Source of the DNA: a virus
IMG/VR virus record: IMGVR_UViG_3300032323_002180
Coordinates: 1 to 30,331 of that record
Strand: one strand, 5' to 3'
DNA: 30,331 bases
Shown here: in pieces, positions 6,701-30,331 of the stretch
Position numbering within the stretch: the first letter of the stretch is position 1
How the letters are laid out: each line of letters opens with the position of its first letter
Notes under the pieces: generated by a model
What the model saw: only the letters and a program-made list of their open reading frames with translations
Told to the model about the DNA's origin: nothing
Databases searched by the model: none
Translations under genes and position numbers: made by a program

Positions 6701-6958
6701 TTATAGTGTTTTGCCCACTGTGACCAAAATCTGCTCCAGCAGCTCGTGATCCTGTTGCTCTCGACCAAATTCACTCTTATGAGCCAGCTTGATGGCCTTC
6801 TTGAGAATGTTGGGTTTGATATCCAGTTCTTCGGCAATGGCCTTGACTGTGTCGTTGAGTCCGCCGGTCAAGGTTTCAATTTCGTGCATGACCTGACAAC
6901 CTTCATTGATTACCTGGTTAAGTTTTTTAGTTTGTTCTACGTTGAATGTTCTAGACAT
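6701..6958 (-). CDS. dsbA: DsbA-like double-stranded DNA-binding protein
   Basis: An 85-residue, helix-rich protein resembling T4 DsbA, a small dsDNA-binding protein that binds near late promoters and modulates late transcription. Matching features are the N-terminal LNQVINEGCQVMHEIETL helix, GLNDTVKAIAEELDIKP, and LKKAIKLAHKSEFG followed by an acidic HELLEQIL tail; T4 DsbA has the same order and a similar length (about 89). ATG 6958 has an AAGGA ribosome-binding site. The gene is upstream of the polymerase in the transcription direction and is divergent from the HNH gene by 29 bp. Its presence agrees with the use of T4-like late promoters in this phage. Confidence 0.85.
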   Translation of the reverse strand: MSRTFNVEQTKKLNQVINEGCQVMHEIETLTGGLNDTVKAIAEELDIKPNILKKAIKLAHKSEFGREQQDHELLEQILVTVGKTL

Positions 6959-6987: not shown

Positions 6988-7512
6988 ATGATATTTACAG
7001 ATAACAAATATACACGTTGCTATTTTAGCATTGTTAATCGAGCATTGTCAAGAGCAGTAGGTGATATGTATGTTGAAAAACATCACATAATTCCAAAATC
7101 TCTTGGCGGATCAAACGATAAAAGCAATTTGGTAAAGTTAACCGCAAAAGAACATTTTTTGTGTCATAGACTTTTGACCAAAATGGTTGATGATCCAAAA
7201 GCAAAAATAAAGATGCACAATGCTGTGTTTCAAATGACTATTTCTAGTAAAAACCAAAGTCGCTATAAAATAACATCCAGAGTTTATACGATCTTAAAAC
7301 AAAACAAATCACTAGCTATGGCAGGAAACAAATATGGTAGAGGCCCAACATCAGAAGTTACTAAACTTAAGATTTCACAAGCCAAAAAAGGTAAGTCGGT
7401 CAACAAAGGAAAGTCAATATCCGTTGAGCAAAGACAAAAGCTGTCGGCGGCACTAAAAGGTAGACAGCCTTGGAACAAAGGCTTAACCTACAATCATAAA
7501 AGCTCACTTTAG
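6988..7512 (+). CDS. HNH homing endonuclease with NUMOD3-like tail
   Basis: A 174-residue protein on the opposite strand from every other gene here. Residues 30-65 carry an HNH core: VEKHHIIPKSLGGSND, then NLVKLTAKEHFLCHRLL, with the His-His and downstream Asn/His metal and catalytic positions. The tail has two short basic repeats, KKGKSVNKGKS and KGRQPWNKGLT, which are NUMOD3-like DNA-binding motifs usual in phage homing endonucleases. It has an AT-rich composition, unlike its neighbours, and no Shine-Dalgarno; a TAAATA box lies 7 nt before ATG. It separates dsbA from the next minus-strand genes and looks like a free-standing mobile gene. Its target is not visible but would lie in a homologous phage genome lacking the insert. 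Confidence 0.9.
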   Translation: MIFTDNKYTRCYFSIVNRALSRAVGDMYVEKHHIIPKSLGGSNDKSNLVKLTAKEHFLCHRLLTKMVDDPKAKIKMHNAVFQMTISSKNQSRYKITSRVYTILKQNKSLAMAGNKYGRGPTSEVTKLKISQAKKGKSVNKGKSISVEQRQKLSAALKGRQPWNKGLTYNHKSSL

Positions 7513-16142: not shown

Positions 16143-17185
16143 TTTTTTCTACCTGACTTCATGTTGGCACACCAGTGATACATCCGGGCCTTTTCGCCTG
16201 ACGCACGTTTGGCACGGGCTCGTAGATCAGTTACTGAACCGTTGCAACTGGCGCCGGCACGTTTTACACGTCCAGGACGACTTTTGCCTTTGACCTTACC
16301 ATCCGCAAAGTTTTCAGCAACTGTGTCTAAAAATGCCACTTCTTCCGGAATACCTAACTTTTTGATACTCCATAGTATTTGATTGTATTTGCCATCGTAC
16401 ATCATTGTACCTGGACCTTGTTGATTCAGAGCTTTGGCCGCCACTTTGTACATACTGGGTTTAAGATGTTGACGAGCTTCAGCAGGCCAACCACCCTTGG
16501 CAACATTGTATAATGTGACTAAACTAAATCCCTCAGCATCGGGTTCCCAGCCATTGGGACCATGCGGATCTACTACAAATATAGCACCACGTTTGATAAG
16601 TTCAGGAACATTTAATGGGCGTCTTGGCAAATTATAAGTTGCTGGATTGGCATTATATTTGCCTTCCGTCACACCTTGCTTGGCTTTGGCTTTGTTTGCT
16701 TGAAATATTTTCTGTTCTTCTGGAGTGGGTTTTCTCAACAAGTGCAGGTATTGATCTACCGGCAACGGTTTGACTTCTGTAGGAGTGATCTCTTTTACAC
16801 CTGGCCGAGAATACCATTCAGCATCTGCTGCCCCACGAACAAACAATGGTCGTCCTTGTTCATCTCTAGTTGGTAGTATGTGTAGATAGACATTTTGACC
16901 GTGCCTGATTTTGCCACCAAAAAATATTAGATGAGGATCTTTCTTCCATCCAAAAGTACCAGTATCGGAACCACGCTCGGCCAAACTGTAAGCTATAGCA
17001 AAGTTAGGATCGTCCGTGGCATAGATGGCATTTTTATTACTTTTTTTAGCACCACCTATGTCATGGGCTTGCCTTGGAGTCAACGGACCATTGATTTCTT
17101 GTGTGGAACCATGATACAAAACTTCTGGATATGATTTACTGTTACCATCGGCAAAGTTTTCGTTGATAAATTCGTGCGCTCTCAT
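16139..17185 (-). CDS. Putative ADP-ribosyltransferase-fold protein with basic Cys module
   Basis: A 348-residue protein. The N-terminal 150 residues have an ART-like pattern: VLYHGS near 22-27, then NAIYATDDPNFAIAYSLAER near 52-70, as in phage and toxin ADP-ribosyltransferases where a Y/HG strand and a YxT-D segment line the NAD pocket. A catalytic Glu cannot be assigned confidently. A middle domain (about 195-285) is unrecognised. The C-terminus is the basic module ENFADGKVKGKSRPGRVKRA plus Cys-containing repeats, ending MKSGRKK. The leader MRAHEFINE|N closely matches T4 capsid-targeting sequences; T4 Alt is also a packaged ADP-ribosyltransferase. ATG 17185 is preferred to the TTG two codons upstream. 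The ART call is moderate, the gene is certain. Confidence 0.6.
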   Translation of the reverse strand: MRAHEFINENFADGNSKSYPEVLYHGSTQEINGPLTPRQAHDIGGAKKSNKNAIYATDDPNFAIAYSLAERGSDTGTFGWKKDPHLIFFGGKIRHGQNVYLHILPTRDEQGRPLFVRGAADAEWYSRPGVKEITPTEVKPLPVDQYLHLLRKPTPEEQKIFQANKAKAKQGVTEGKYNANPATYNLPRRPLNVPELIKRGAIFVVDPHGPNGWEPDAEGFSLVTLYNVAKGGWPAEARQHLKPSMYKVAAKALNQQGPGTMMYDGKYNQILWSIKKLGIPEEVAFLDTVAENFADGKVKGKSRPGRVKRAGASCNGSVTDLRARAKRASGEKARMYHWCANMKSGRKK

Positions 17186-17187
17186 AC

Positions 17188-18078
17188 TCAATTGGCCTCA
17201 AAACTCTTTTGAACGCGATATGCTTCATCAGGAAACTTGGCCAAGTAAGCATCAACCAAGGCATCAAAACTACTGCCAAATCTGGCCTTTAAACTTTTCA
17301 AGCTCACTGGCTGATCTTTTTCGTTCATAAACTGACCGGTTTGTTCATTGTTGATGATATAGTCTTCGCCTTGTTGGAAAAACACTTCGTTGTATTCGTC
17401 GTCATTGTACACAGGCAGATTATCAATGCTGTAGTCAAACCACAACTGATATTTTTCACCCGGATATTGCGGCTGTTGCGGTATCACTATTAGCAAGGGT
17501 GTGTTTTCAGCATAGTCGTTGAACAAGTTGCGACCCTTGGTAGCCGCTGTACACCAGCGAGCACCTTGTCCATAGTAACAGGCAGCGGCCTGATCATAGG
17601 GTATGATCACTCGCACTTGCCGATCTTGATATATTTCTTCGGCCTCGCCTTTGTCCTTTAACTCTGCGGCTTCAGGATCTGGATATTCATCCATCACGCT
17701 CATAAAGTCACCAAAGTTGCTGTATCGTAGAATGTCATTGCGTGGTGCTGGTATTTTTCGACGCTGGTTCAGTACGTGAAACTTTTCCAAATACTCACGT
17801 ACCTGTGAGAGTACATCCTCAAAAAATGTTTCACCTTTGACGTAGGTGCGAGCCAACCAAGGCATGTACTGCTTGTTGGCTGTGGGGTCTGCCTGTTCCA
17901 ACATGCGGATTAGAGCTTCTATGGTATCGGCATCGCTGTCCTGTGGTCCAAGATCACGACCCAGTACTCTGCGTATGCGGCCCGGACCTTCTTTACGGAA
18001 TGTGTCCAGCACTTGAGCTCCCAAACGTTGCTTGGTTATGTCACGACTGTATTCTAATAGGAATTCTTGGGCTCTCAT
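17188..18078 (-). CDS. Conserved phage protein with RWCTAAT motif and capsid-targeting-like leader
   Basis: A 296-residue protein starting MRAQEFLLE|YSRDI, the best match in the window to a T4 capsid-targeting leader with an LLE cleavage site. The first half is helical. The second half has a conserved-looking core, DQAAACYYGQGARWCTAAT, then LFNDYAENTPLLIVIPQQPQ and EKYQLWFDYS. The invariant-looking Cys/Trp/Tyr residues suggest a catalytic or binding site, but I cannot name the reaction. The gene overlaps the giant polyvalent gene by ATGA and is followed 2 nt later by the ART-like gene. It probably shares their fate, namely packaging into the head or delivery, by inference. Confidence 0.75.
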   Translation of the reverse strand: MRAQEFLLEYSRDITKQRLGAQVLDTFRKEGPGRIRRVLGRDLGPQDSDADTIEALIRMLEQADPTANKQYMPWLARTYVKGETFFEDVLSQVREYLEKFHVLNQRRKIPAPRNDILRYSNFGDFMSVMDEYPDPEAAELKDKGEAEEIYQDRQVRVIIPYDQAAACYYGQGARWCTAATKGRNLFNDYAENTPLLIVIPQQPQYPGEKYQLWFDYSIDNLPVYNDDEYNEVFFQQGEDYIINNEQTGQFMNEKDQPVSLKSLKARFGSSFDALVDAYLAKFPDEAYRVQKSFEAN

Positions 18079-21000
18079 AGCGTGGTAGACTTGGTTGTTT
18101 CAAACATCTTGCCATGACTGGATTGATGCAAGCGTAACATGGTGCTGGCCAGTTTGGCCACAGTCATCACTGCCTGCGGACTGCGTGGGTTGGCCTTGAC
18201 ATCGGCCCAGTTCTTGTAGCCATTTTTTTGAGCAGCTTGATCCAGGGCATGTAATACAGCAGGTGGAGTTTCTTCCATTTCCATGACACTGTCGCCCAGT
18301 TGTCTGGCCATCTTGATCTGTTGGGTCATGTCTTCTAGGTCTTTCTTGCTGATAGCTTGCCCTATGGCACTGCGGTAAGGTAGTCCGGGCACAGTATCCT
18401 GTTGAGCTTTTGCCACAGGCGTCACTGCTTTCTTGCTAATGCTTTTTGGGTCTTGACGTGGAGGTATAGCACCTGCACCACTGATGGGATCTATGGTTTC
18501 ACGCACAGTTTGTTGTGCTCTGATGGCATCGATTCGATCACTGTTGCGTTCAAACGCACTGTAATCACCTGTTGGTCGATCCTGCAAGTTGGCCTGCAAG
18601 GTGGCACTGTCTCTGGCACTGTCAAAATTCTGTGCTACCCAGGGTGGTTCTTCAGCTGGTTTAGCCGCAACTTTTCTATAGCCATAATCGGCAGTGTCGT
18701 CGGGTAGGTCTTTGCTTTTCAGCCACTGTGAATAGACCTTTTGCGCATCCGTGTCACTGGTTGCATAAAATTTATCAACCACAGGCAAACGCACATCAGC
18801 CTGATTCACTATCTCATAGTTATAGTCTACGGATTTACGTGGTTGGCCGGTGATACGCTTGGCCAACTTGGCTCTTGGAGTCATTGTGGCAGGATCTTCA
18901 TAAGGACGCACATTGAATCCAATCTTTTGGGCCGCATACTTGTCAAATACCAAATCGGCTGCTTCGCCTTTGTTGCGACCCGTGACTATTTCAAGAGTTT
19001 CACCTGTGTCAACACTGTATATTTCCCACTGTTGATCTCCACTCATGTTGCGTAATTCGTAGGCGGCATCAAAATCTCGATCGGATGAACCAGGACTGAT
19101 TTTTCCTTTGGCTTTGGCTCGGGCTTCCTCTTCGGTATAGCCATTGTATTCTTGTCCAGGAACTGGTTCACCAGTAGCACGGTTATATAATTTCCAACGC
19201 TGATTCATTTTGCGTTCTGTGCCAATGGTTCGTTCAGCCCACTGTTTCTTCAGTTGCTCTTTGTCAATTTCGCCTGCGGCAAACTGACTGAATAGAGCCA
19301 GTTGGCTATCACCTTCAGGAGCAACCAGCTTGTATAACTTTTTGGCAAACTCCTTGCGTTCGGCACTGGGGTCAGCTGCTATCTGCATGGCCCGGGCATA
19401 GCGCAACATGGTATTTTCTAACTTGCCAGGTTCTGCATCGCCCTCGGCCAACCAGTCTCCACCTGCGGATCTGAATTCAATGTAGCCGTCCTGTATGTGC
19501 GCACTGGTGTACTTGCCGGTGCCCACACCTTTTTGTATTTCTCTGTAGGCAAACTCTATCAAGTTGCTTTTCATCAAGGCCATGGCACCTGCAGGATCAG
19601 CACGACCACCTTTAATATTTTCGCGGAACTTTTGCATGGCCGACTTGGTATATGAGTTGGCTTCACGTCCAAATGATTGTAGCACATATTCATCGCCTAG
19701 GAACAGGATCAGTTTTAGGTAGTCTACATCGCCGCCTTTATAAGGCACGCTGACACCCATGTGTAGGCCTGTTGACTCATTGGTATAGGCGCTGCCATAC
19801 GGGCTGTTGGCCCAGTCGGTCACGGCCTGCAGTTGTTCCAGTGCTTGTAATAAAGGCATGGGCGGTGAAACAATTTCCAAGCCAAAGTCTTCGCTGTCGT
19901 CGGGTCTCAAACTGGTGTCAGGTTCCACAATCCACTGACCTTCTTTACGTGTGGCGTTGTGATAACCTGAGCTTACTTTGACCGGCATGCCCACGGTTTG
20001 CTCTAGGCTGCTGCCAATTTCGTCCCATTCACGACTTCCGCCGTTGTTGCCACCGCCCGATCCGGTCAGGTAGGGCCAGTCCAGGCTGTATTCTGCTGCA
20101 ATGTCGCTCATGTAAGTTAGTCCAACATCACTAAAGAAGTCACTGTCGTCGTCAACATAAAAATTCTCACGGAAGTCATCCAGTGCAGCATCCCAGTTTG
20201 CACCTTTTTTACGAACTTCGTCGGCTACGAGATCATCTAACAAGCCTTCGGCTTCGGCCTGTGCATCCAGGTATTTTTGATACAGGGGATTTGCTTCAGC
20301 ATACGCGGTTTGTTCTTTGCTGGTGGTAAACTTGGGTGCTCGTTCTCCGGCATTGACGATGTCATTTATTTCATCGTTGGTCAAGTCCAACAGAGCCAAC
20401 TGTTTTTGTATTTCGTCGTCTTCGTCCCAGTCGCCTTCATCGACAAGAACTTTACGGATCAAGTCTTCGGCTTCGTCATCAAATGCATCACGCATGCGCT
20501 CATCCTGCCACTCCATGTACTGTTCATCTAAGCCGTCTTGTAATCGACCTTCTTGTCGTTCACTGAGGCCACCGTAGTCACCGCCGTTGAAAAAGTCTAT
20601 GACCTGAGATACGCTACGAGCACGTTCATCGTAGTCATAGTCGGGCTCTATATCCCCTTCGTCATCATCGTCATTGGTGGTGTCGCGGAAGATCAGTTCG
20701 GCTTCAAAACCAGCACGTATGCCTTCAGCTTCTGGACTGCGTGCCCACTGTTGCAAGGCCGACGGACTCATTTTAACTTCATCTAATACCTCAGTAGATT
20801 CAGCCAGTTTCTGCTGGCGATACATCTGATACATTTTTACATAGTCTTGTTCGCCGCGTGTGAGTGGGCGGCCCATTTTATGTTTGGCCAAGATAAACCG
20901 GTAGTATTGTTCAGCATCCTGATCCTTGGCCGCAGGAACCTGTATGGTCTCATCCACGTTGTAGGTAGGATCTGTTTTGACCTTACGCATGCCAGGCGGT

Positions 21001-22715
21001 TGTTTAGGATCTATAGGATCAATGTCTGTTACATCCAAGCCGGTGGCTTCTAAGTCTTTGATAAATTTGTGTTCGGTATCTTCGTCACCAAAGCTGATAA
21101 TACTGCTAGGTGGTCCAGCACCAAAGTCGTGTTTGCCTAGGCCTTTCATGTTGCTAATGTGTTGACCCAGTTTGTACCAGTCATACACATCGCTCACATC
21201 CACACGCAGGGTGCCAGCTGGCATGGTGGGTTTGAATTCTGGGCCCGGTGGATTGTCTGGGCTATAATCTTCGTCGGCCTTGTATTGCTTATATTCTTTA
21301 AACAAGTTTTCAAACAGGCCATCAGCACGAGCTATCTGAGGTGTTCCTTGCTTGTCGGTTTTTAATTTTAATTTGTTGGCCTCTTTGCCCACTTGTCCAG
21401 GCTTGATATCTTGTGTAAGAGCCATGCTGAATCTAGGATCCTTGGCTTGTGCCTTTGTGGGAATGTATCCGGATGCACCTTCGCCTAGTTTGGTTTCATT
21501 AGCATCAAACAGTTCTGGATGCAGTCGACCGTAGTCACGCATGAGTACACCGGCGCGAGCATTGGCTTCATTTTCATAGGGTGATCCAGTTTCGCCTGCA
21601 TCAACCGGCACATCGGCACGTTCGTGTTGATGTTTGTGTGTGAGCTCATGAGCTACTGTGCGTAACACGTCCATGATATGACGTTGACCAAATGCTACCT
21701 CCAGCGTGTTAATATCATCTATGTAACGACCAAATGTTCGATTTACCACACTCCACTGTGGGTCTTTGCGCAGTTTCACACGTGGCATGTGTTTTATCTT
21801 TAATTCTTTGACACAAAATTCAATAAAGTCTTTCAATATATCTTCATCGGACAGGTCAGCAGATTCACGTAGACTTTCTCCTCCACCGCCATCTCCACCA
21901 CCCTCAGATCCGGCGGCGTGATCCTGTCCAGCATAGCCAGTACCTGGATACCAGTATGCTCCGTAACCATAGCGCACTTTCTTTTTCTTTTTCTTGCGTC
22001 GTTCGTCCAGACTCAACAGTTGATCCTTGGCTGCATTACGGGCATCATACAACTGTTTGATCTTGCCCTGGCTACGCAACATTTTGAATGCTAGATTTTC
22101 AGGACCAAATTCGCCATGCTGGTCAAGACCCGACTGTCGCATGTCACGAATTTTTGCAGACAATGCACTCATTACATCATAGTCGCCTGTTGCAACAGCT
22201 TGTTCAATGCGTTGTTCAAGATCTTCATATTTGCTACGTGTGCTGACATCGTCTATGTTGGTTTTTCTACGTTTAGGAACATCGATCCAGTCATTGCGTA
22301 GTACACTGTAAATTCCTTGACTGTGATGTGGTTTGTTCGCATCTTGCACATACAGTTCAACATCATATCCGCCAATTTTGATGTTGTGCTGATCGTTGTA
22401 CTGATATTTTTTTGCATCAAACAGTTCGCGGTACACTTCTGAAGCATCGGCTTCGGGTAAATCCACTACCAGGTGCAGGTCAATGTCGCTGTGCGGCGTA
22501 TAGGTGTAGGCGGCATTACTTCCGCTTATTGTGATGTCTTTAAGTTGTAAGTCTGTTATGCCAAGGAACTCGCGAAAATCTTCAGCGATCTCCAGCAACT
22601 TGCTGTGCGCCTCGGGTGTCAGGTGTTCATCTGGGCCCCACAGTTTGGGATTTAATTTGTCATTGAACTTGACTGCATCGCCAAGATTGTAAGACTCTAA
22701 CTGATCAATATTCAT
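18075..22715 (-). CDS. Giant polyvalent protein: nucleotidyltransferase, HExxH metallopeptidase and amidoligase-like domains
   Basis: About 1546 residues. Residues 40-170 form a Pol-beta-type nucleotidyltransferase: TISGSNAAYTYTPHSDIDLH gives the GS and DxD motifs. A Lys-run and Gly-rich linker follows (about 240-282). Residues 290-420 are a metallopeptidase-like domain with AHELTHKHQHE (HExxH at 356-360). Residues 660-1090 fit the amidoligase (glutamine-synthetase-like COOH-NH2 ligase) pattern: GFEAELIF, WIVEPDTSL, LEIVSPPMPLLQALEQL, STGLHMGVSV, and a later IEFRSAGGDWL. Around 1170-1390 are three related repeats (WKLYNRATGEPV, WEIYSVDTGETLE, YEIVNQADVRLPV). The start ATG 22715 follows AATAAATA by 5 nt with no Shine-Dalgarno. 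Polyvalent proteins are known phage conflict proteins delivered early; delivery here is inferred. Confidence 0.8.
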   Translation of the reverse strand: MNIDQLESYNLGDAVKFNDKLNPKLWGPDEHLTPEAHSKLLEIAEDFREFLGITDLQLKDITISGSNAAYTYTPHSDIDLHLVVDLPEADASEVYRELFDAKKYQYNDQHNIKIGGYDVELYVQDANKPHHSQGIYSVLRNDWIDVPKRRKTNIDDVSTRSKYEDLEQRIEQAVATGDYDVMSALSAKIRDMRQSGLDQHGEFGPENLAFKMLRSQGKIKQLYDARNAAKDQLLSLDERRKKKKKKVRYGYGAYWYPGTGYAGQDHAAGSEGGGDGGGGESLRESADLSDEDILKDFIEFCVKELKIKHMPRVKLRKDPQWSVVNRTFGRYIDDINTLEVAFGQRHIMDVLRTVAHELTHKHQHERADVPVDAGETGSPYENEANARAGVLMRDYGRLHPELFDANETKLGEGASGYIPTKAQAKDPRFSMALTQDIKPGQVGKEANKLKLKTDKQGTPQIARADGLFENLFKEYKQYKADEDYSPDNPPGPEFKPTMPAGTLRVDVSDVYDWYKLGQHISNMKGLGKHDFGAGPPSSIISFGDEDTEHKFIKDLEATGLDVTDIDPIDPKQPPGMRKVKTDPTYNVDETIQVPAAKDQDAEQYYRFILAKHKMGRPLTRGEQDYVKMYQMYRQQKLAESTEVLDEVKMSPSALQQWARSPEAEGIRAGFEAELIFRDTTNDDDDEGDIEPDYDYDERARSVSQVIDFFNGGDYGGLSERQEGRLQDGLDEQYMEWQDERMRDAFDDEAEDLIRKVLVDEGDWDEDDEIQKQLALLDLTNDEINDIVNAGERAPKFTTSKEQTAYAEANPLYQKYLDAQAEAEGLLDDLVADEVRKKGANWDAALDDFRENFYVDDDSDFFSDVGLTYMSDIAAEYSLDWPYLTGSGGGNNGGSREWDEIGSSLEQTVGMPVKVSSGYHNATRKEGQWIVEPDTSLRPDDSEDFGLEIVSPPMPLLQALEQLQAVTDWANSPYGSAYTNESTGLHMGVSVPYKGGDVDYLKLILFLGDEYVLQSFGREANSYTKSAMQKFRENIKGGRADPAGAMALMKSNLIEFAYREIQKGVGTGKYTSAHIQDGYIEFRSAGGDWLAEGDAEPGKLENTMLRYARAMQIAADPSAERKEFAKKLYKLVAPEGDSQLALFSQFAAGEIDKEQLKKQWAERTIGTERKMNQRWKLYNRATGEPVPGQEYNGYTEEEARAKAKGKISPGSSDRDFDAAYELRNMSGDQQWEIYSVDTGETLEIVTGRNKGEAADLVFDKYAAQKIGFNVRPYEDPATMTPRAKLAKRITGQPRKSVDYNYEIVNQADVRLPVVDKFYATSDTDAQKVYSQWLKSKDLPDDTADYGYRKVAAKPAEEPPWVAQNFDSARDSATLQANLQDRPTGDYSAFERNSDRIDAIRAQQTVRETIDPISGAGAIPPRQDPKSISKKAVTPVAKAQQDTVPGLPYRSAIGQAISKKDLEDMTQQIKMARQLGDSVMEMEETPPAVLHALDQAAQKNGYKNWADVKANPRSPQAVMTVAKLASTMLRLHQSSHGKMFETTKSTTL

Positions 22716-22720
22716 GCATG

Positions 22721-22728
22721 TATTTATT
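22721..22728 (-). promoter_or_regulatory. Late-promoter-like box AATAAATA before the giant gene
   Basis: Matches 7 of 8 bases of TATAAATA and directly follows a terminator. By T4 spacing the first transcribed base would be 22715, exactly the A of the start codon, giving a leaderless mRNA. Confidence 0.5.
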
Positions 22729-22740
22729 GGATATACAAAA

Positions 22741-22757
22741 GCCGCTATCAAAGCGGC
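22741..22757 (-). terminator. Intrinsic terminator after the glycosyltransferase gene
   Basis: Perfect stem GCCGCT / AGCGGC with a 5-base loop. On the minus strand it is followed by TTTTGTATAT; on the plus strand by CTTTATA. It lies between the glycosyltransferase stop (22784) and the late-promoter-like box for the giant gene (22721-22728), a clean end-and-restart arrangement. Confidence 0.7.
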
Positions 22758-22783
22758 CTTTATACACTTGTCCCAATTGCTGG

Positions 22784-23674
22784 TTACTTTTTCTTGGTTT
22801 TGTCTGATTTTTTACTGGATGCCAACACAGTTGCAGCAACCGGAGCAGGTGGTTCTGCAGGTTTGACATCAACCGGTGCGGCTTGACCGTTGGCTGTGGC
22901 CAAACTGTGTAGATCCTTGTACAGTTGATCCTGTGTAGCAAAATCAAACACGTAGGTACCTGTGTGTTTCAGCAACACTCGTTTGTCTACCCACACTTTA
23001 CCGCCTAGATCACGCCAGTTTTCACAGAAAGTCCAGTCCTCGCTGTAGTAACGATTTTCACGCACAGCAGTATCAAAGTAGGTTTTCATGTAGGGATTCA
23101 ATTCTGGGGGCAGGCCTATATCGTTTATAAAAGGCTTGGTTGCAGGATGGGCGTTTAATTTTTCAAACACACCGCGTTTGATCAACATGAAGCCAGTGCC
23201 AGTTTTTGACACTTCTTGCAAGCCATCTGCACCTTCTTCGGCTCCGTCGAAACCGTTGACACACCATTTAACTGGTAAAGATTTCATTGGGTACAAGCCG
23301 CCAATAACATCCACGTCACGATTCAACATGACCAGCAAATGCCAAGGCTCCCACCCGATATCAGCATCAATAAACATCAAGTGTGTAGAGTCTTTGTTGT
23401 TGAGGAACTTGGCTGTGAGTGTATTACGAGCCCGGCTGATCAAACTCTCATTGGTCATGGTTTCCATGGTCCAATCAATGCCCAGTTGTCGGCAAGTGTT
23501 TGACCACTTGATGTAACTCATAAATGTTGATTCTGTCAACATGCCACCATAACACGGCATGCAAATATGAACTCGTGTGGTTTTTAAATAGTCTATGTTT
23601 ACTTGGATCTGTTGTTGACCTGCCGGAGCAGCTGGTGGTTGTGTTGTGGGTGTTGCAGGTTGGGTTTCAGCCAT
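22784..23674 (-). CDS. GT-A type glycosyltransferase
   Basis: A 296-residue protein. After a Pro/Thr/Gln-rich N-terminal tail (about 1-28) comes a nucleotide-sugar-binding fold: TTRVHICMPCYGGML, ISRARNTLTAKFL, then HLMFIDADIGWEPWHLLVML with the DxD metal site at Asp103-Asp105, and DVDVIGGLYPMK. The tail ends in SDKTKKK. GT-A enzymes move sugar from a nucleotide donor to DNA bases, proteins, lipids or glycans; the acceptor cannot be read here. Glycosylation of DNA or virion surface are candidates. Expression looks tightly regulated by a promoter within a hairpin just upstream (23681-23710). A terminator follows the gene. Confidence 0.85.
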   Translation of the reverse strand: MAETQPATPTTQPPAAPAGQQQIQVNIDYLKTTRVHICMPCYGGMLTESTFMSYIKWSNTCRQLGIDWTMETMTNESLISRARNTLTAKFLNNKDSTHLMFIDADIGWEPWHLLVMLNRDVDVIGGLYPMKSLPVKWCVNGFDGAEEGADGLQEVSKTGTGFMLIKRGVFEKLNAHPATKPFINDIGLPPELNPYMKTYFDTAVRENRYYSEDWTFCENWRDLGGKVWVDKRVLLKHTGTYVFDFATQDQLYKDLHSLATANGQAAPVDVKPAEPPAPVAATVLASSKKSDKTKKK

Positions 23675-23680
23675 GAGTTC

Positions 23681-23710
23681 CTCTATTAAAGTGTCTGATA
23701 TTTAATAGAG
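23681..23710 (-). promoter_or_regulatory. Hairpin with embedded late-promoter box before the glycosyltransferase gene
   Basis: A perfect 10-bp inverted repeat (23681-23690 and 23701-23710, CTCTATTAAA / TTTAATAGAG) with a 10-nt loop. Its 3' arm on the minus strand ends in the AGAGGA ribosome-binding region, 6 nt before ATG. The late-promoter-like ATTAAATA (23699-23706) lies in the 5' arm and loop. A transcript starting there (about 23693) would lack the 5' arm and leave the ribosome-binding site free. Confidence 0.6.
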
Positions 23711-23724
23711 TTTAACACACTTGG

Positions 23725-24516
23725 TTATTTTTTCCTATGATGTTTTTCGTCAATATAGTCCTGACTTGTGTGTTCATTCAGTTTTGATCGACGAAAATTA
23801 GCCAGTTGCTGTTGTATTTCTGTGATTTTTTTGGACAATTTTTCTCTACGTTCTCGCATGACAGCGACTGGATTGTCACCGGCAAAGATTTTTTCTTGGC
23901 CGTAAATAATGCCTTCTGCAGGTTCATTTACTCCTAGACGTTGATCAAATATATCTTTTATTTCTGGGTCTGCACTGCCATACAAGTCTGTAATGATTTG
24001 CATACGATCAGTGTCGTTGCCATCGCGATACAGTTTACGTATAGCACTGGCAGAATCAGCGTCTTGGCCTTGGACTCGAAAATTTACAGTGGGAGTAATA
24101 GCCACATAGCCGTGCGTGGTCAATGGTTTTAACTTTTTAAGATTGGCTGGTAAAGGTTGTAGATAGCTGGGGTCGCCGTTTTTCTTTGGAGCAAACGTAA
24201 AACGTTCGTGATCTTTGGCACTCACAGCAAAAATCAAAGCAGTTGTGGCTTTTCCTTCGTCACTGAGGCTGCCAACAATTTCTTTGGCTTGATAAGGATT
24301 TTTAACCTGCACAATGCGTCCTGCTGGAACGCCTAACCGGGTCATCATTTTTACTTTGTCAGCATAGGCAAATGGGCTGGTTTCAGGATCTTGCACCCCT
24401 GAAGTAGCAATGTAAACAGAATTTTCGCCGTACTGTTTAGTTAGATAGTCGTAGCTGGCCTTGTGCCCCAAATGGAACGGATGGAAACGACCGGGATAGA
24501 TTACGAGATAGTTCAT
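23725..24516 (-). CDS. HxGH nucleotidylyltransferase (NMN/cytidylyltransferase-like)
   Basis: A 263-residue protein. YPGRFHPFHLGHKASYDYL holds the HxGH signature of the nucleotidylyltransferase superfamily, and DADSASAIRKLYRDG near residue 145 is the matching phosphate-binding S-x-S-x-I-R motif. KVKMMTRLGVP and IFAVSAKDHERF fit the Rossmann core. Enzymes of this type attach AMP or CMP to NMN, pantetheine phosphate, glycerol phosphate or sugars; an NMN adenylyltransferase or cytidylyltransferase is most likely. The C-terminal 45 residues are a charged helix (RERREKLSKKITEIQQQLAN), then SQDYIDEKHHRKK. The ATG follows CATAAATA by 7 nt without a Shine-Dalgarno. It could feed NAD for the ART-like enzyme or counter NAD-depleting defence, which is inference. 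Confidence 0.8.
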   Translation of the reverse strand: MNYLVIYPGRFHPFHLGHKASYDYLTKQYGENSVYIATSGVQDPETSPFAYADKVKMMTRLGVPAGRIVQVKNPYQAKEIVGSLSDEGKATTALIFAVSAKDHERFTFAPKKNGDPSYLQPLPANLKKLKPLTTHGYVAITPTVNFRVQGQDADSASAIRKLYRDGNDTDRMQIITDLYGSADPEIKDIFDQRLGVNEPAEGIIYGQEKIFAGDNPVAVMRERREKLSKKITEIQQQLANFRRSKLNEHTSQDYIDEKHHRKK

Positions 24517-24523
24517 TATCTTA

Positions 24524-24531
24524 TATTTATG
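24524..24531 (-). promoter_or_regulatory. Late-promoter-like box CATAAATA, 7 nt before a start codon
   Basis: Matches 7 of 8 bases of TATAAATA. T4 spacing places the start of transcription at 24518, two bases before ATG of the HxGH nucleotidylyltransferase gene. It sits in a 16-bp gap. Confidence 0.45.
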
Positions 24532-24532
24532 G

Positions 24533-24973
24533 TCACATGTGCTCTAAAAGCCACAGGTACACAGGGGTAGTAAATTTCAAGCTCACAGTACCATTACAGC
24601 CTATCTCACCGTAAAATTTATCCTGCACAGGAGTCGGTAATTGTGCATTTTGATCATGGGTGTACACTGCATGAGCTGTTACTAATTGTCCTAGAGCTAT
24701 TTCATCAAAGTTCAAGTCAGTTATAACTAACCTGGCATCGGAGATTATATTACCCTCCTGATCAACTTTGGTGTGGTCCTGTATTTTATTTTTTAGCACA
24801 AGACACAGTTCGTGTTCGGCAGCATCAGCGGATATTTCTATCTGAATTTTTTGATTGGATTGTACGTGTTCAGTATCATAAAATTTATTGTCATCAATCC
24901 AAGCTTCAAATCCCAATGGAACTGTTGCGTTGGTTGTGTCCAACGCAAATGAAATTGCTACCAAATTAGACAT
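24533..24973 (-). CDS. Beta-rich hypothetical protein, possible virion or carbohydrate-binding domain
   Basis: A 146-residue protein made of alternating strands: LGFEAWIDDNKFYDTEHV, KIQIEISADAAEHELCLVLK, DARLVITDLNFDEIALGQL and a terminal NGTVSLKFTTPVYLWLLEHM. The pattern suggests a jelly-roll or CBM-like sandwich, as in phage tail or neck-associated proteins. There is no signal peptide or catalytic motif. Its ATG follows directly after the stop of the preceding gene (TAAATG). It appears in a late-type cluster of small proteins with 24974-25500. I do not know its family with certainty. Confidence 0.7.
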   Translation of the reverse strand: MSNLVAISFALDTTNATVPLGFEAWIDDNKFYDTEHVQSNQKIQIEISADAAEHELCLVLKNKIQDHTKVDQEGNIISDARLVITDLNFDEIALGQLVTAHAVYTHDQNAQLPTPVQDKFYGEIGCNGTVSLKFTTPVYLWLLEHM

Positions 24974-25339
24974 TTAATAGGCTACTGAAATGGTAATAGT
25001 GCCAGATTCAAAGCTGGTGATGTTGGCACGTAGCCAGGTAAAATTGCCCACCACGTTGACCGGAATAGTGCCGTTGTCAGCAGAACTACCATCTCCGTAC
25101 GTGGCTACTTCAAACCATGGGGCAGATTCACGTGCATCGTTTAGGGTGGCTTCCATGGTGATTACACCCACAAAATTTTGCAACTGATACGTGATGGTTT
25201 GCAATGCTCCTTGACCACCGTAGTAGTTGGCAGCAGGAACAGCGTTGCTAAACCAATCTTGACTGCTGCCGTCGTAGTTACCGGATGCGGTTCCGTAGGT
25301 TACAGCGTCTACTAGAATCTGTGTGGTGTAAACGGTCAT
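24974..25339 (-). CDS. Small beta-rich probable structural protein
   Basis: A 121-residue protein, low in charge and rich in Gly, Thr, Asn and aromatics (YTTQILVDAVTYGTASGNYD, GALQTITYQLQNFVGVITME, a C-terminal GTITISVAY). It resembles a phage virion beta-sandwich more than an enzyme; the exact role is unknown. The ATG overlaps the stop of the 54-residue gene (ATGA), and the stop abuts the next start. The gene is thus the middle of a three-gene set, 24533-25500. Confidence 0.7.
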   Translation of the reverse strand: MTVYTTQILVDAVTYGTASGNYDGSSQDWFSNAVPAANYYGGQGALQTITYQLQNFVGVITMEATLNDARESAPWFEVATYGDGSSADNGTIPVNVVGNFTWLRANITSFESGTITISVAY

Positions 25340-25500
25340 GCCTGTTTGATTTCAACCAAAGTGCCTGCACCTGCCAGTTCACCCACAACTGCTTCCAGTT
25401 GAGCAACTATATCGTCAGTCAAAATTGCTGTGGTGTTAGCATCGTCCTTGAGCAATTGGCTCAGGGTAATTACCAAAGTTTGTTCGTTGATTTTTGCCAT
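25336..25500 (-). CDS. 54-residue helical protein
   Basis: A short gene starting at ATG 25500 and overlapping the next gene by ATGA. The product begins MAKINEQTLVITLSQLLKDD and is predicted helical (AQLEAVVGELAGAGT), without membrane segments. It is supported by the precise ATGA overlap, the TAAATA box 7 nt before ATG and a normal phage codon pattern. No family is recognised. It may be a small structural or chaperone partner for the downstream beta-rich proteins, which is inferred from position only. Confidence 0.6.
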   Translation of the reverse strand: MAKINEQTLVITLSQLLKDDANTTAILTDDIVAQLEAVVGELAGAGTLVEIKQA

Positions 25501-25506
25501 AGTGTT

Positions 25507-26244
25507 TTATTTAGTCGGAATAATCTGCATGGTTTTTCTAATCAGGCCGGATCGCACCAACGACAGCATAGTCAACCAGGACATGTCAGTATGATCCACA
25601 AAAAAATAGTCCTGTGTACGGTTGAAACTGGTTGTGCACCAACTGGTAAGCGCAGGACTGATTCTTGCATGCCCTGTTTGATTGTTTAAAAAATTGGTCA
25701 GCATGGTTTTTTCGCCGGCAGTAAGTTTGGTTGTTCGAAAGTAACTGCGAAAATTATAACAAGAATTTTTTAATTTCAAAGTATTTTTAGGCCGTGACAC
25801 CTGGGCTCGGGTGTAGATTTTGTGATCCAGTATGGCTAATTTAGACAGTTGTTGCACTAGATCAATACTGTTGGTATAGACCCATCCATAATTGGTACTG
25901 ACAACCAGTTTAAAATCCACTGCACAGGTGCGCAATACGTCAGCAAAATCATACAGGTGTTGTTCAACCAAATCAGTAATTTCTTTATAATCGCGGCGAG
26001 TCAGAACTGATCTATTGGCGCCCTTTTTATTCAAGGTAACCCAGCGTTGCTGTGCTATCTGGCGCCATTCTCGTCGCCGTTCAATCATATGACCAATTTT
26101 TACACGGTCAAGATCCTGATCACGCAGGCAACTGATTTCTTGCAGGACAAAGTTGACAGAATATTCGAAGCGATCATAAAATAATCGATCCTTGTCAACT
26201 GATCTAAACTTCAGGGTTGACTTGGTCGACAACGATATATCCAT
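25507..26244 (-). CDS. Conserved phage hypothetical protein overlapping the end of clpA
   Basis: A 245-residue basic protein. The N-terminal part STLKFRSVDKDRLFYDRFEY and IERRREWRQIAQQRW, with several Arg/Trp/Tyr residues, is of a type I have seen in T4-like aquatic phages; the function is unknown. The start is ATG 26244, which overlaps the ClpA stop region by 41 nt; an alternative TTG at about 26229 would reduce the overlap and has GAGG 12 nt upstream. There is no signal peptide. It may bind nucleic acid given its charge, but this is not shown. The TAA stop is followed by the TAAATA box of the 54-residue gene. Confidence 0.7.
   Translation of the reverse strand: MDISLSTKSTLKFRSVDKDRLFYDRFEYSVNFVLQEISCLRDQDLDRVKIGHMIERRREWRQIAQQRWVTLNKKGANRSVLTRRDYKEITDLVEQHLYDFADVLRTCAVDFKLVVSTNYGWVYTNSIDLVQQLSKLAILDHKIYTRAQVSRPKNTLKLKNSCYNFRSYFRTTKLTAGEKTMLTNFLNNQTGHARISPALTSWCTTSFNRTQDYFFVDHTDMSWLTMLSLVRSGLIRKTMQIIPTK
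25508..25515 (-). promoter_or_regulatory. Late-promoter-like box ACTAAATA, 7 nt before a start codon
   Basis: Overlaps the stop of the upstream gene. T4 spacing gives a start at 25502, two bases before ATG 25500. It matches 6 of 8 bases of TATAAATA. No Shine-Dalgarno is seen. Confidence 0.35.
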
Positions 26245-28480
26245 CCTCAGTTACTACTACCTTACTGGCCGGAATTTCTGTGACAAATTCCACTGCATCA
26301 TCTTTGATTGCAGCATGTATTGTGCAATTTTCCAATCGGTCAAACAGAATACGTTTACTCAATGGCACACGAATCAGTTCATCAATTTTGCGACCCAAGG
26401 GTCTAGCACCCATTTTATTATCATAGCCTTTGTCTGCCAACATGTCAACTACAGACTCAGCCAAGGTCAATCGAATATTTTTGTTTAGCAGACTGTCTTT
26501 GAGTTCATCAACAAATTTCAACACCACTTTCTTAATTGCTAAGGTATCTAGTTTGTTGAACCGACACACACAGTCTATACGATTACGCAGTTCTGGTTTG
26601 AAAAACTCTTTCATAGCACGGTCTTCTGATCCGGTACGTTCTAGACTTTGTCCAAAACCAATATTGTTGGTTTCGTTGTCTCGGGCGCCCAGGTTACTGG
26701 TCATGATGATTATGCAGTTTTTAAGATCTACAGTTTTGCCATTGCTGCTTGTTATTCTTGCTTCGTCCAGCATCTGCAACATGATGTTGATCACATCCGG
26801 ATGAGCCTTTTCAATTTCATCAAACAACAAGATACTGAATGGATTCTTGCTGATGTCACTGATCAACTTGCCACCGCCCAGATTGCCATCTTCGAAGCCC
26901 ACATAGCCTGGGGGTGCACCAATCAGGCCCGATACTGTGTGTCGTTCTTGATATTCACTCATGTCGTATTTCAACAGCTTCATGTCAAGATGTTCACTTA
27001 ACAATTTGGCCAATTCTGTTTTGCCGGTGCCGGTTGGCCCCAAAAACAAAAAGCTGGCAATGGGACGTTTGGCATTACCGATACCACTAAAATTGATATA
27101 AACACGTTCCAGCACACGATCTACCGCTGCATCTTGCCCGTATAGTTTTTGTTTGATGTTGCTTTCTAATTCAATGATCTTTACACTGCTTTCATTTTCT
27201 AATCGATCCAAGGGAACATCTGTGACTCGACTCAGTTGCTCCATGATCATGGCCTTGGTAATGGTAACATTGCCAAGATCTTTCACACGCTCTCTAGCAC
27301 AAGCACCGTCAAGCAGATCAATTGACTTGTCAGGATTTTTACGATCATGTATATAACGACCACTTAGATCTACTGCGGCTGTAATGGCATCAGTGTCAAT
27401 CATGACATTGTGGAAAGATTCCAATCTGGGGCTAAGGCCAATCAGGATCTGTTCTGTAGTCCCAGCATCGGGCTCGTCAATGCCCACTCGATGAAATCTA
27501 CGCATGAGTGCGCGATCTTTTTCAAATGATTCGTAATATTCTTCCCAGGTGGTACTGGCTATGACTTTCAAACTGCCCTTGGTGATGCTGGGTTTTAACA
27601 TGTTGGCCATGTCCAGGCTGCTTTGGCTCGAAGCACCGGCACCCTTCATGGTATGTGCTTCGTCCACAAACAAGATGCATTTTTTCTTGGTTTCCAGTGC
27701 GGTAATGACTGCTTTGAACTTTTCTTCAAACTCACCGCGGTACTTGGAGCCGGCTAGGAGACTGCCTACTTCAAGACTCCATACTTCGTGATCCTTTAGG
27801 AATTCTGGCACACGTCCTGCGCTGATCTCCTGGGCCAGGCCTTCCACAATGGCAGTTTTGCCCACACCAGGATCACCCACCATGAGCACATTGGCTTTAA
27901 ACTTGCGGGCCAGTACAGTGATCATTTCATCTAGTTCGCCACTGCGACCGATCATGGGTTCTAGACGATCTTGTCCGGCCAAGTCTGTAAGATTGGTGCA
28001 GTGTTCGGTCAGTATCTCGGTGGCCTGCTGATCAGTGAGTCGCACGTCACTTTGTTTGTAATTGGCTTGATAAAATTCTGCAAACTCGGCTTTCTTGACT
28101 CCGTACTTGAGCAAAAAATAGTGCGCATGACTGTTGTTTTCACTCATCATGGCCAGATATAGATCCACAGTACTAATTGTTCTGCGCCCCGTGAACAGCA
28201 CCTGTGTCAACGCACGATTAAACACACGTTCCAGTGCATTGGTCTTTTTGGGTTGCACATCCTTGGTTGTGGCCAATCCAGCCAAGCTGGCCAAATAGGC
28301 TTCTACTTCTTGTTCCATACGAACAACATTGGTGCCAAATTTTTCTAATACCGCACGGAAAGGTTGATGCCGTAACAAGGCCAACAACACATGCTCGGTC
28401 ATTACATACTCATGTTTGCAATCACGTGCTAGTTTAACTGCAACATCAACTATCTGTTCAATTTCTGGATTGTTTTGCAT
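26204..28480 (-). CDS. clpA: ClpA-type AAA+ unfoldase
   Basis: A 758-residue Clp/Hsp100 ATPase, length equal to E. coli ClpA. It has a Clp N-domain (1-145, EYVMTEHVLLALLRH), AAA-1 with Walker A GDPGVGKT (202-209) and Walker B CILFVDEAH, and AAA-2 with Walker A GPTGTGKT (481-488) and LLFDEIEKAHPD (551-562). There is no ClpB-type coiled-coil middle domain, so the protein is ClpA-like rather than a disaggregase. The loop TNNIGFGQ (IGF at 607-609) matches the ClpP-docking tripeptide of ClpA/ClpX. No ClpP gene is seen here, so it may use host ClpP. ATG 28480 has AAGGAA 5 nt upstream. It lies directly downstream of the DnaJ gene, forming a chaperone pair. Confidence 0.95.
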   Translation of the reverse strand: MQNNPEIEQIVDVAVKLARDCKHEYVMTEHVLLALLRHQPFRAVLEKFGTNVVRMEQEVEAYLASLAGLATTKDVQPKKTNALERVFNRALTQVLFTGRRTISTVDLYLAMMSENNSHAHYFLLKYGVKKAEFAEFYQANYKQSDVRLTDQQATEILTEHCTNLTDLAGQDRLEPMIGRSGELDEMITVLARKFKANVLMVGDPGVGKTAIVEGLAQEISAGRVPEFLKDHEVWSLEVGSLLAGSKYRGEFEEKFKAVITALETKKKCILFVDEAHTMKGAGASSQSSLDMANMLKPSITKGSLKVIASTTWEEYYESFEKDRALMRRFHRVGIDEPDAGTTEQILIGLSPRLESFHNVMIDTDAITAAVDLSGRYIHDRKNPDKSIDLLDGACARERVKDLGNVTITKAMIMEQLSRVTDVPLDRLENESSVKIIELESNIKQKLYGQDAAVDRVLERVYINFSGIGNAKRPIASFLFLGPTGTGKTELAKLLSEHLDMKLLKYDMSEYQERHTVSGLIGAPPGYVGFEDGNLGGGKLISDISKNPFSILLFDEIEKAHPDVINIMLQMLDEARITSSNGKTVDLKNCIIIMTSNLGARDNETNNIGFGQSLERTGSEDRAMKEFFKPELRNRIDCVCRFNKLDTLAIKKVVLKFVDELKDSLLNKNIRLTLAESVVDMLADKGYDNKMGARPLGRKIDELIRVPLSKRILFDRLENCTIHAAIKDDAVEFVTEIPASKVVVTEDGYIVVDQVNPEV

Positions 28481-28513
28481 GTATTCCTTTGTTAGTATGC
28501 ATGAATTACTACT

Positions 28514-28542
28514 AGTTTACAATACTTTTGTGATTTTCGCAA
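28514..28542 (-). promoter_or_regulatory. Possible sigma70-type promoter for clpA
   Basis: TTGCGA (28537-28542 on the minus strand) and TAAACT (28514-28519) are separated by 17 nt, each matching 4 of 6 bases of the consensus -35 and -10 boxes. It lies in the 75-bp gap before clpA. Confidence 0.3.
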
Positions 28543-28552
28543 GTCTCATGGG

Positions 28553-28560
28553 TATTTATT
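28553..28560 (-). promoter_or_regulatory. Late-promoter-like box AATAAATA before clpA
   Basis: Same octamer as upstream of the giant gene (7 of 8 matches to TATAAATA). It overlaps the DnaJ stop. Predicted transcription starts near 28547, giving a 67-nt leader to clpA. Confidence 0.4.
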
Positions 28561-29335
28561 TTTGATATTTGGATCGAATCATGTCAATCAAATCTTCCGG
28601 AATATCCTTGGGTATTTGTGCCTGCACACGTATCAACAGGTCACCCGACTGTCCAGATCTATTTTGTAGGCCTCGGCCACGCAGTCGCATCAAGGTGTTG
28701 GGTTGAGTACCTGGCGGAATGGTCAAACTCAGATTGTTGCCCAGAATATCCTGCACATTTACATTGCAACCCAGGATCAAATTCCACACATCAATTGGGT
28801 GATCAGTAATTAAATTATGGGCTTGCCGCTCCCATCGTGGATTGGGATGTATTCTAAAGGTAATTATCAGATCCATCCCACCAGGACCAACGCCAGGATA
28901 CTGCACACTGGCGCCATCGTCAATACCAGGCGGCATTTCTATCTCTACAGTTGTAGTGCCTTGATTTGTGCCCACGCTGATAGTTTTTGGACCGCCACGA
29001 GCTACGTCTTGCAGGGTGACCCATAAACTCATTACAGCACGCTGATGTTGCTGTCGTTGTTGCGGATGATTAAATCTAGCACCAAAAACATTAAATATGC
29101 TGTCAAAATTAAATGCCTGTCCGCCCATGCCTTCAAATTGATGCCGAGGATTGTCATACGCAGAACGTTTTTGCGGGTCACCAAGAGTGTCGTACGCACT
29201 TTGAATTTCTTGAAATCGAGATTTATCACCGCCTTTGTCAGGATGATGCTGACTGGCCAACCGCCGGTAGGCACGTTTAATAGTATCCGAGTCGGCGTCA
29301 CGATCAACACCTAGAGTTTGATAGGGATTTTGCAT
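28556..29335 (-). CDS. dnaJ: DnaJ/CbpA-type J-domain co-chaperone
   Basis: A 259-residue protein. The J domain covers residues 3-62 with HHPDKGGDKSRFQEIQSAYD, and the HPD at 31-33 stimulates Hsp70 ATPase. A short linker (60-95) replaces the usual Gly/Phe region, and there is no zinc-finger domain. The substrate-binding C-terminal domain follows (TLQDVARGGPKTISV, IPPGTQPNTLMRLRGRGLQN). It is therefore a type B, CbpA-like protein, shorter than E. coli DnaJ (376). Partner Hsp70 is presumably the host DnaK. The ATG has no clear Shine-Dalgarno; a perfect hairpin lies 12 nt upstream. It pairs with clpA downstream, pointing to protein folding or turnover during infection. Confidence 0.93.
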   Translation of the reverse strand: MQNPYQTLGVDRDADSDTIKRAYRRLASQHHPDKGGDKSRFQEIQSAYDTLGDPQKRSAYDNPRHQFEGMGGQAFNFDSIFNVFGARFNHPQQRQQHQRAVMSLWVTLQDVARGGPKTISVGTNQGTTTVEIEMPPGIDDGASVQYPGVGPGGMDLIITFRIHPNPRWERQAHNLITDHPIDVWNLILGCNVNVQDILGNNLSLTIPPGTQPNTLMRLRGRGLQNRSGQSGDLLIRVQAQIPKDIPEDLIDMIRSKYQK

Positions 29336-29346
29336 ATAAAGAAATT

Positions 29347-29375
29347 ACAGACAGTATTGTAATTATACTGTCTGT
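29347..29375 (-). terminator. Perfect 11-bp hairpin between the secreted-protein and dnaJ genes
   Basis: ACAGACAGTAT / ATACTGTCTGT with a 7-nt loop. On the minus strand it follows the stop at 29391 and is followed by AATTTCTTTAT, a weak U-rich tail, so an intrinsic terminator is likely; an operator or processing site is possible. Confidence 0.5.
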
Positions 29376-29390
29376 TGAGACTTAATGCAA

Positions 29391-29615
29391 TTACTTCTTG
29401 TCAGGAACTGGTGTGCCTTCGAGTTTTTTGTGTACCTTGATGGTTTTGCAGGCCCGTTTGGCGGTACCGTCTTTGTTTTTGACTGTTTTACCATCTTTGC
29501 CCACAACATCCTTGCAGACTTCTTTGGTTTTGGTTTCGGCATAAGTTGGAACTGTGAGTGTGATGGCCGCAACAGCAATTACTGTTGCCCAACAGATTTT
29601 GATAATTGCGTTCAT
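29391..29615 (-). CDS. Small secreted protein with signal peptide
   Basis: A 74-residue protein with a clear Sec signal: MNAIIKICWATVIAVAAITL then TVPTYA, with cleavage after AxA-like TYA (about residue 26). The mature part is about 48 residues, basic and Lys-rich (KDVVGKDGKTVKNKDGTAKR), with two Cys that could form a disulfide. A periplasmic location is expected. Its ATG overlaps the TGA of the membrane microprotein gene (ATGA). It may take part in lysis control or superinfection exclusion given the holin-like neighbour, but nothing in the sequence proves it. Confidence 0.75.
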   Translation of the reverse strand: MNAIIKICWATVIAVAAITLTVPTYAETKTKEVCKDVVGKDGKTVKNKDGTAKRACKTIKVHKKLEGTPVPDKK

Positions 29616-29731
29616 TTTTTATCCTTGATCATTGAGGTAATTTTGGCCTGTATGGCCCGGGCCCAGAACGGTTGTGGAAAGTTCCAGCCTACAAATGCTC
29701 CTACTGCTATCCAAAATATGGTATCTAACAT
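29612..29731 (-). CDS. 39-residue single-helix membrane microprotein
   Basis: A short gene with a strong AAGGAG Shine-Dalgarno 7 nt before ATG 29731. The product starts MLDTIFWIAVGAFVGWNFPQ, a hydrophobic helix ending in a Trp-Asn-Phe-Pro-Gln motif, then a basic amphipathic tail (FWARAIQAKITSMIKDKK). It is a likely inner-membrane peptide with the tail in the cytoplasm. It overlaps the secreted-protein gene by ATGA and is 11 nt downstream of the holin-like gene, so all three form a membrane/envelope operon. It is of a type I associate with T4-like phages but without assigned function. Confidence 0.7.
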   Translation of the reverse strand: MLDTIFWIAVGAFVGWNFPQPFWARAIQAKITSMIKDKK

Positions 29732-29742
29732 TTTACATCTCC

Positions 29743-30204
29743 TTAAATTTCTGGGTGGTCGGGTTGTACTGGTCCGCGGCCAAAACTGCCAGATGAGCTC
29801 ATGCTATTTCCGCCCAAGGGTGCATTGCTAAAACTGGGCGCAGGAGTGTAGGCTCTAGGAGCTGGCGCACCAAAACCGGATGGTGCTGGTGTGGTGCTGG
29901 GCAGTTGTAGGCCACCGTTGTTGGCACCGGCCATTTTTTCCTGTGTACGACCATAAGCAGCAATACCCAAGATAGCACCCATGGCAATGTGAAACAGGCC
30001 AGCACCTTGTAGAGTAATGGGTTGCCATTGGCTTTCGACCTTGCCGTCGCCTACTACCTGGATCATGCTCCATAACACAGGAAAGATCACAAAGTCAGTG
30101 ATACACACCAACATGTACATCCAACCCATGGCCGGACGCCATTTGGTATTCATCCAATCTTCGTTTTTCTTAGCACTTTCGCTTTTGACTTCTTCAGCGG
30201 GCAT
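29743..30204 (-). CDS. Holin-like 3-TM membrane protein with disordered tail
   Basis: A 153-residue protein. Residues 17-90 follow the 3-TM holin (gene-transfer-agent type) pattern: WMNTKWRPAMGWMYMLVCIT, VIFPVLWSMIQV, then a periplasmic loop and LFHIAMGAILGIAAYGRTQEK, the GRTxEK ending being characteristic. Residues 95-153 are Pro/Ala/Ser/Gly-rich and probably disordered, longer than usual in this family. Holins assemble in the inner membrane and open it to endolysin at the end of infection. The Shine-Dalgarno GGAG is strong. The gene is followed by the membrane microprotein and the secreted protein. No endolysin gene is seen in the window, so the lysis role is inferred from the family. Confidence 0.75.
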   Translation of the reverse strand: MPAEEVKSESAKKNEDWMNTKWRPAMGWMYMLVCITDFVIFPVLWSMIQVVGDGKVESQWQPITLQGAGLFHIAMGAILGIAAYGRTQEKMAGANNGGLQLPSTTPAPSGFGAPAPRAYTPAPSFSNAPLGGNSMSSSGSFGRGPVQPDHPEI

Positions 30205-30230
30205 ACCTGCTCCTTTTATTTTTATTATTA

Positions 30231-30331
30231 TTACACTGCCGAGGCTATAGTGATCAGGGCAGTTATAGCTGTATTTAACCTTTGCTTGGTTTCAAATTGT
30301 GACACGTTTTCTGTGATGGTGATTTGACGCT
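30231..30331 (-). CDS. C-terminal end of a partial gene
   Basis: An open frame enters from the window edge and ends at TAA 30231-30233. The visible 32 or so residues include ITITENVSQFETKQRLNTAI and end ALITIASAV. It is supported by uninterrupted coding and by a stop 27 nt before the holin-like start. The function cannot be judged from the fragment. Confidence 0.55.
   Translation of the reverse strand, partial: RQITITENVSQFETKQRLNTAITALITIASAV

Follow-up and report, generated by a model that had tools for sequence, protein, structure and literature searches.

The window, that is, the whole stretch of DNA analysed here, is a virus fragment of 30,331 bases whose genes lie almost all on the minus strand and which encodes a T4-type DNA polymerase (phrog_262), a ClpA/B-type ATPase and DnaJ. 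The virus contigs most closely related to it measure up to 353 kb, and the element described below is carried by a lineage of uncultured, T4-related jumbo phages. A co-directional run of genes, headed by clpA, ends with a gene for a 296-aa protein (Table 1). The product is probably a glycosyltransferase of the GT-A type, judging from its sequence matches. In addition to the family assignment, a weak profile match to STIV A197 (2c0n, E 4.6e-4) was obtained, and the homologues keep the motif FxDADIGW. Among distant homologues, one in Ochrobactrum phage OC carries the annotation putative glycosyltransferase. A Pfam search of the protein gave no match. An AlphaFold model of the protein was of low confidence (pLDDT 51) and was dropped as a query for fold searches because its quality was too poor. 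A terminator-like element of the kind found 3' of the gene in the window is present at 31 of 77 loci, the window counted.

Table 1. Features of the glycosyltransferase locus, in window coordinates and in the order of transcription.
Feature	Position	Strand	Basis
Sigma-70-like promoter before clpA, TTGCGA-17-TAAACT	28514..28542	-	conserved in relatives
ClpA/ClpB-type ATPase gene (clpA), likely early	26204..28480	-	phrog_4871, E 3.6e-234
TAAATA leading the cytidylyltransferase-like gene, close to its ATG	24524-24529	-	sequence
Upstream cytidylyltransferase-like gene	23725..24516	-	phrog_395, PF01467
A-tract 24-29 nt upstream of TAAATA	23728..23733	-	leader columns
5' arm CTCTATTAAA, only in read-through RNA	23701..23710	-	sequence, fold
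TAAATA, T4-type late promoter core	23699..23704	-	relatives' leaders, late-gene association, gp55
Loop TATCAGACAC	23691..23700	-	sequence
Predicted late transcription start, A of conserved ACA	23694	-	inferred from T4 spacing and leader column pattern
3' arm TTTAATAGAG, kept in late RNA, overlapping the Shine-Dalgarno site	23681..23690	-	sequence, fold
Shine-Dalgarno site AGAGGA, 4 nt from ATG	23679..23684	-	sequence
Glycosyltransferase gene (controlled gene), 296 aa, probable GT-A type	22784..23674	-	phrog_1574, E 3e-38
Terminator-like hairpin GCCGCTTTGATAGCGGC followed by TTTTG, 3' of the glycosyltransferase gene	22741..22757	-	sequence

Read 5' to 3' on the minus strand, the glycosyltransferase leader consists of CTCTATTAAA, TATCAGACAC, TTTAATAGAG and GAACTC, followed by the ATG (23674-23672). 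A preliminary description of this locus reported a perfect 10-bp inverted repeat with a 10-nt loop, and the repeat is indeed found at 23710-23681. The same description had the 3' arm touching AGAGGA at a spacing of 6 nt from the ATG; the AGAG of this site does fall within the arm, and the spacing had to be corrected to 4 nt. The stem is AU-rich and modest (-8.4 kcal/mol at 37 C), and an Rfam search of positions 20000-30331 gave no match up to E 1. When the whole window was scanned for perfect repeats of at least 10 bp with loops of 3-15, two loci were recovered, the glycosyltransferase leader and the dnaJ leader, and first-order Markov controls of the window contained a mean of 0.7 such repeats (range 0-4). 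The glycosyltransferase-leader repeat by itself is only mildly unlikely by chance, and the case therefore rests on its position at the ribosome-binding site and on its evolutionary pattern.

The late motif was described as lying within the 5' arm and loop, which is where ATTAAATA is located (23706-23699). TAAATA is present in the glycosyltransferase leaders of all but a few unique relatives, as TAAATA(T) at a distance of about 30 nt from the ATG and among bases that vary. When 681 upstream regions and two complete genomes are surveyed, TAAATA shows two preferred positions, near -30 and at -10 to -15; the ORFs of this survey and of the genome-wide hairpin survey came from a simple open-frame caller and are not curated genes. 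Ten TAAATA-led genes sampled from relative G003 all have matches in head, tail or connector families, the portal included, and each of the nine relatives larger than 220 kb in which it was looked for encodes a gp55-like late sigma factor. The sharp positioning before genes, the association with virion genes and the presence of gp55 in relatives agree with the earlier reading of the motif as a late promoter. The window motif differs at -13/-12 from that of T4, TATAAATA, which spans -13 to -6 (PMC1524935), and the consensus of the lineage is NNTAAATA. Since comparable motifs have been reported for T4, S-PM2 (NATAAATA) and Aeh1 (CTAAATA) (PMC2984593, PMC1524935), we take NNTAAATA, together with gp55, to be an ordinary T4-family late promoter. 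The predicted late start still lies past the 5' arm, with the likeliest position being the A at 23694 instead of about 23693.

The A-tract is a further feature of the glycosyltransferase leaders, with A in 49 of 50 representatives at column -27. It was not seen at other TAAATA promoters, and a search elsewhere for the combined A-tract and TAAATA pattern gave matches almost only at the glycosyltransferase gene. The A-tract could belong to a middle-type promoter, in which it would be joined by a -10 resembling TATACT or TAAACT and located about 10 nt 5' of TAAATA; such a promoter might overlap the late one. Its spacing is fixed, a -35 element is absent from T4 late promoters (PMC2988020), and an overlap of early and late promoters has been proposed for T4-like phages without motA, such as RB49 and S-PM2 (PMC2984593). 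However, the -10-like hexamer is found in a minority of leaders only and no hexamer resembling TTGACA is conserved, and we consider a middle-type promoter unlikely.

In most relatives the promoter before clpA has the form TTGNNN-17-TATAMT, with a 17-bp spacer. No minus-strand terminator-like site was found between clpA and 23674 in the window, and 48 of 53 loci have none in the 3 kb upstream of the glycosyltransferase gene. Because a conserved sigma-70-type promoter precedes clpA and no terminator intervenes, read-through into the glycosyltransferase leader is plausible, and the read-through RNA is presumably early. The silenced RNA may also be late, since the cytidylyltransferase-like gene just upstream has its own TAAATA. 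It is possible, at somewhat less than an even chance, that the hairpin insulates the gene from read-through of every kind, late or early, so that output would be set by the gene's own promoter and not by timing. Late RNA from the TAAATA of the cytidylyltransferase-like gene would also read into the glycosyltransferase leader, and genes with TAAATA but no Shine-Dalgarno site would, in the same way, be read best from their own start, although the conserved clpA promoter makes early read-through likely as well. Insulation and an early/late switch are mutually compatible. By inspection of the relatives, the hairpin showed no link to the strength of the clpA promoter, and several relatives without the hairpin have a strong clpA promoter (L052, L055 and L077).

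By the predicted folds, the Shine-Dalgarno site should be hidden in the read-through RNA only and open in the late RNA. The predicted cost of opening it in the window is 7.2 kcal/mol for the read-through RNA versus 1.5 kcal/mol for RNA from the predicted late start, and the same energy measure gives 13.8 versus 3.5 kcal/mol for T4 gene e, where the mechanism is proven. T4 soc, used as a positive control, showed no contrast in opening cost. A difference of at least 5 kcal/mol was found in 25 of 75 glycosyltransferase leaders compared to 4 of 71 other genes with TAAATA and a Shine-Dalgarno site (p 2e-5). Only 40 of 76 leaders passed a cut of 3 kcal/mol, and at least 22 changes of state occurred on the tree; therefore, the hairpin device is labile across relatives.

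When 58 unique leaders were folded, a good part of them formed strong helices, whose arms differ from one relative to another. The arm pairs CCTCTTAA/TTAAGAGG, TGATGTAA/TTACATCA and CCTCTTGAgATGT/ACATCAAGAGG, for example, are unrelated, and wider searches added further unrelated solutions. When flanks were swapped among 50 diverse leaders, pairing energy was -6.5 kcal/mol with the leader's own flank versus -4.4 kcal/mol with a swapped one (0/5000 permutations). Against a tree-aware null in which the upstream flank evolved independently, the 76 leaders gave -6.78 versus -3.72 +/- 0.36 (0/300, z -8.5), and the negative controls of this test, a neighbouring flank and a reversed flank, gave z of +0.5 and -1.5. 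The Shine-Dalgarno opening cost likewise exceeded the same null (3.76 observed versus 2.22, 0/300). Since many lineages have no helix or use another register, double substitutions counted on the tree in a fixed register did not differ significantly from the tree-aware null (2.5 vs 1.4), and register-free folding tests were used in place of this test of compensatory change. Among homologous phages, where the preliminary description had proposed to check covariation and conservation, register-free pairing is supported by the swap and tree tests, covariation in a single register is not significant, and the hairpin itself is present in about half of the relatives. We read these results as selection for pairing that acts in many lineages but not in all, the hairpin being often lost or remodelled.

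The same tests bear on two other explanations. About 0.7 perfect 10-bp repeats are expected per random sequence of window size, and many relatives are without the repeat, as would fit a chance repeat in an AT-rich leader; however, with the tree-aware and swap tests significant and their controls near zero, chance is a very improbable explanation. The dyad might instead be a DNA-level operator or promoter element, or a site of RNA processing or stability. In some relatives it is tight around TAAATA and stops short of the Shine-Dalgarno site (GCGTAAATATACGC in L371 and L373, GTGTAAATAGTTTACAC in L014), and the conserved A-tract upstream of the glycosyltransferase promoter would also fit such an element. 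However, complementarity stays while the arms vary widely, unlike a protein site, and the cost of opening the Shine-Dalgarno site is itself selected, so that we regard this explanation as quite unlikely.

Roughly half of the relatives have the promoter without a strong hairpin, and in the cultured phages OC, Cr30 and phiM12 the homologues of the glycosyltransferase gene have neither the promoter nor the hairpin. The genome-wide excess of hairpins at other genes with TAAATA and a Shine-Dalgarno site is weak (z -3 vs -2 for Shine-Dalgarno genes without TAAATA), with about four cases of strong hairpins in three genomes; therefore, the device is gene-specific. Four other gene starts of this kind with strong promoter hairpins were noted (L096:3583, L125:11420, L122:10265 and L136:9269), one of which belongs to a possible tail fibre gene.

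We propose that the glycosyltransferase leader is a T4-style cis-acting RNA switch in which the choice of transcription start controls translation, an interpretation that we hold to be probable. An RNA begun farther upstream, such as at the sigma-70-type promoter of clpA, would carry both arms, which would fold into the 10-bp hairpin and bury the Shine-Dalgarno site. Late in infection, polymerase programmed by gp55 would start at the TAAATA in the 5' arm and loop, and the resulting RNA, beginning near 23694 and lacking the 5' arm, would leave the Shine-Dalgarno site open and be translated with a leader some 20 nt long. The T4-like logic of a hidden site in read-through RNA and an open one in late RNA, as suggested earlier, is supported by the predicted opening energies, the promoter and the selection on pairing. 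These, along with the repeat and the association of the motif with late genes, were read from the sequences themselves; the actual 5' ends and the size of the translational effect we infer.

Other leaders in these genomes may also favor RNA from a gene's own start. In the dnaJ leader (29347-29375, minus strand), a strong, terminator-like stem stands just before the ATG, and its 5' arm contains TATAAT, a sigma-70-like -10. A stem with such an embedded -10 is also present in L002, L003, L005, L008, L011-L013, L019, L021, L031, L034, L051 and L062; its arms vary together across relatives with complementarity kept, and L019 has TTGACA-17-TATAAT. Read-through RNA would terminate at this stem, and RNA from the dnaJ promoter would not contain the 5' arm. 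At other genes, TAAATA lies 10-15 nt before the ATG (31/417 and 33/432 ORFs in two genomes); the portal gene of G003 is one of these. It is found close to an ATG at 24524-24529 and 22721-22726 on the minus strand of the window and in relatives G001, G003 and G004. The RNA of such genes would have its 5' end on or beside the start codon, giving seemingly leaderless late mRNAs. The absence of a Shine-Dalgarno site from the -10 to -15 class is partly forced, since the intervals scanned for the two motifs overlap, and is not independent evidence, and in the cultured relative OC the arrangement was absent at the late genes checked. Whether the ribosome-binding-site hairpin of the glycosyltransferase gene, the promoter within a terminator at dnaJ and the leaderless-looking late genes form one strategy of expression only from a gene's own start is speculative, and we consider it rather doubtful.

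Several other features of the window were noted. The gene at 18075-22751 (minus strand) encodes a protein with an amidoligase-like domain; its listed TTG start is probably wrong, and the ATG at 22715 sits 6 nt after TAAATA. A similar stretch, coding for approximately HCAGRK, seems to occur at the ends of several different genes (about 9349-9385 and about 16143-16190, minus strand) and in leaders of L002 and L003, a similarity at the DNA level only. A homing endonuclease gene (6988-7512, plus strand) begins inside the leader of a divergent small gene (6701-6958, minus strand), which has a TAAATAT/ATATTTA repeat 5' of its Shine-Dalgarno site.

With the proposed switch, a classic mechanism of T4, described for a few genes of T4-like phages, would reach into uncultured jumbo phages as well. 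The leaders argue in quantitative terms for selection to conceal the ribosome-binding site, which is achieved with unrelated arms, and start-site choice as a general control device in these phages becomes testable. In T4 gene e (lysozyme), early read-through RNA folds into a hairpin that covers the ribosome-binding site; the late promoters are located within the 5' strand of this hairpin, and the late RNA lacks this strand (PMC3014915). The glycosyltransferase leader shares this layout, which the same energy measure detects in both. However, gene e has two promoters of the form TATAAATA, whereas here a single promoter of the form NNTAAATA is combined with a weaker, AU-rich stem, before another gene, in jumbo phages, and with the hairpin in about half of the relatives. 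Late promoters and hairpins are arranged alike at T4 I-TevI, I-TevII, I-TevIII and segB and at Aeh1 mobE (PMC2988022), although these are homing endonuclease genes and not a probable glycosyltransferase gene. A hairpin has also been proposed to block translation of read-through RNA of sigG in Bacillus subtilis; it cannot form in transcripts that start at the promoter of sigG itself (PMC5942855). The logic of the read-through hairpin is the same, but sigG is a bacterial sporulation gene with a much longer stem and an unrelated promoter and sigma factor. Control by a T4-type late promoter within a hairpin is already known, and the glycosyltransferase leader appears to add a further case.
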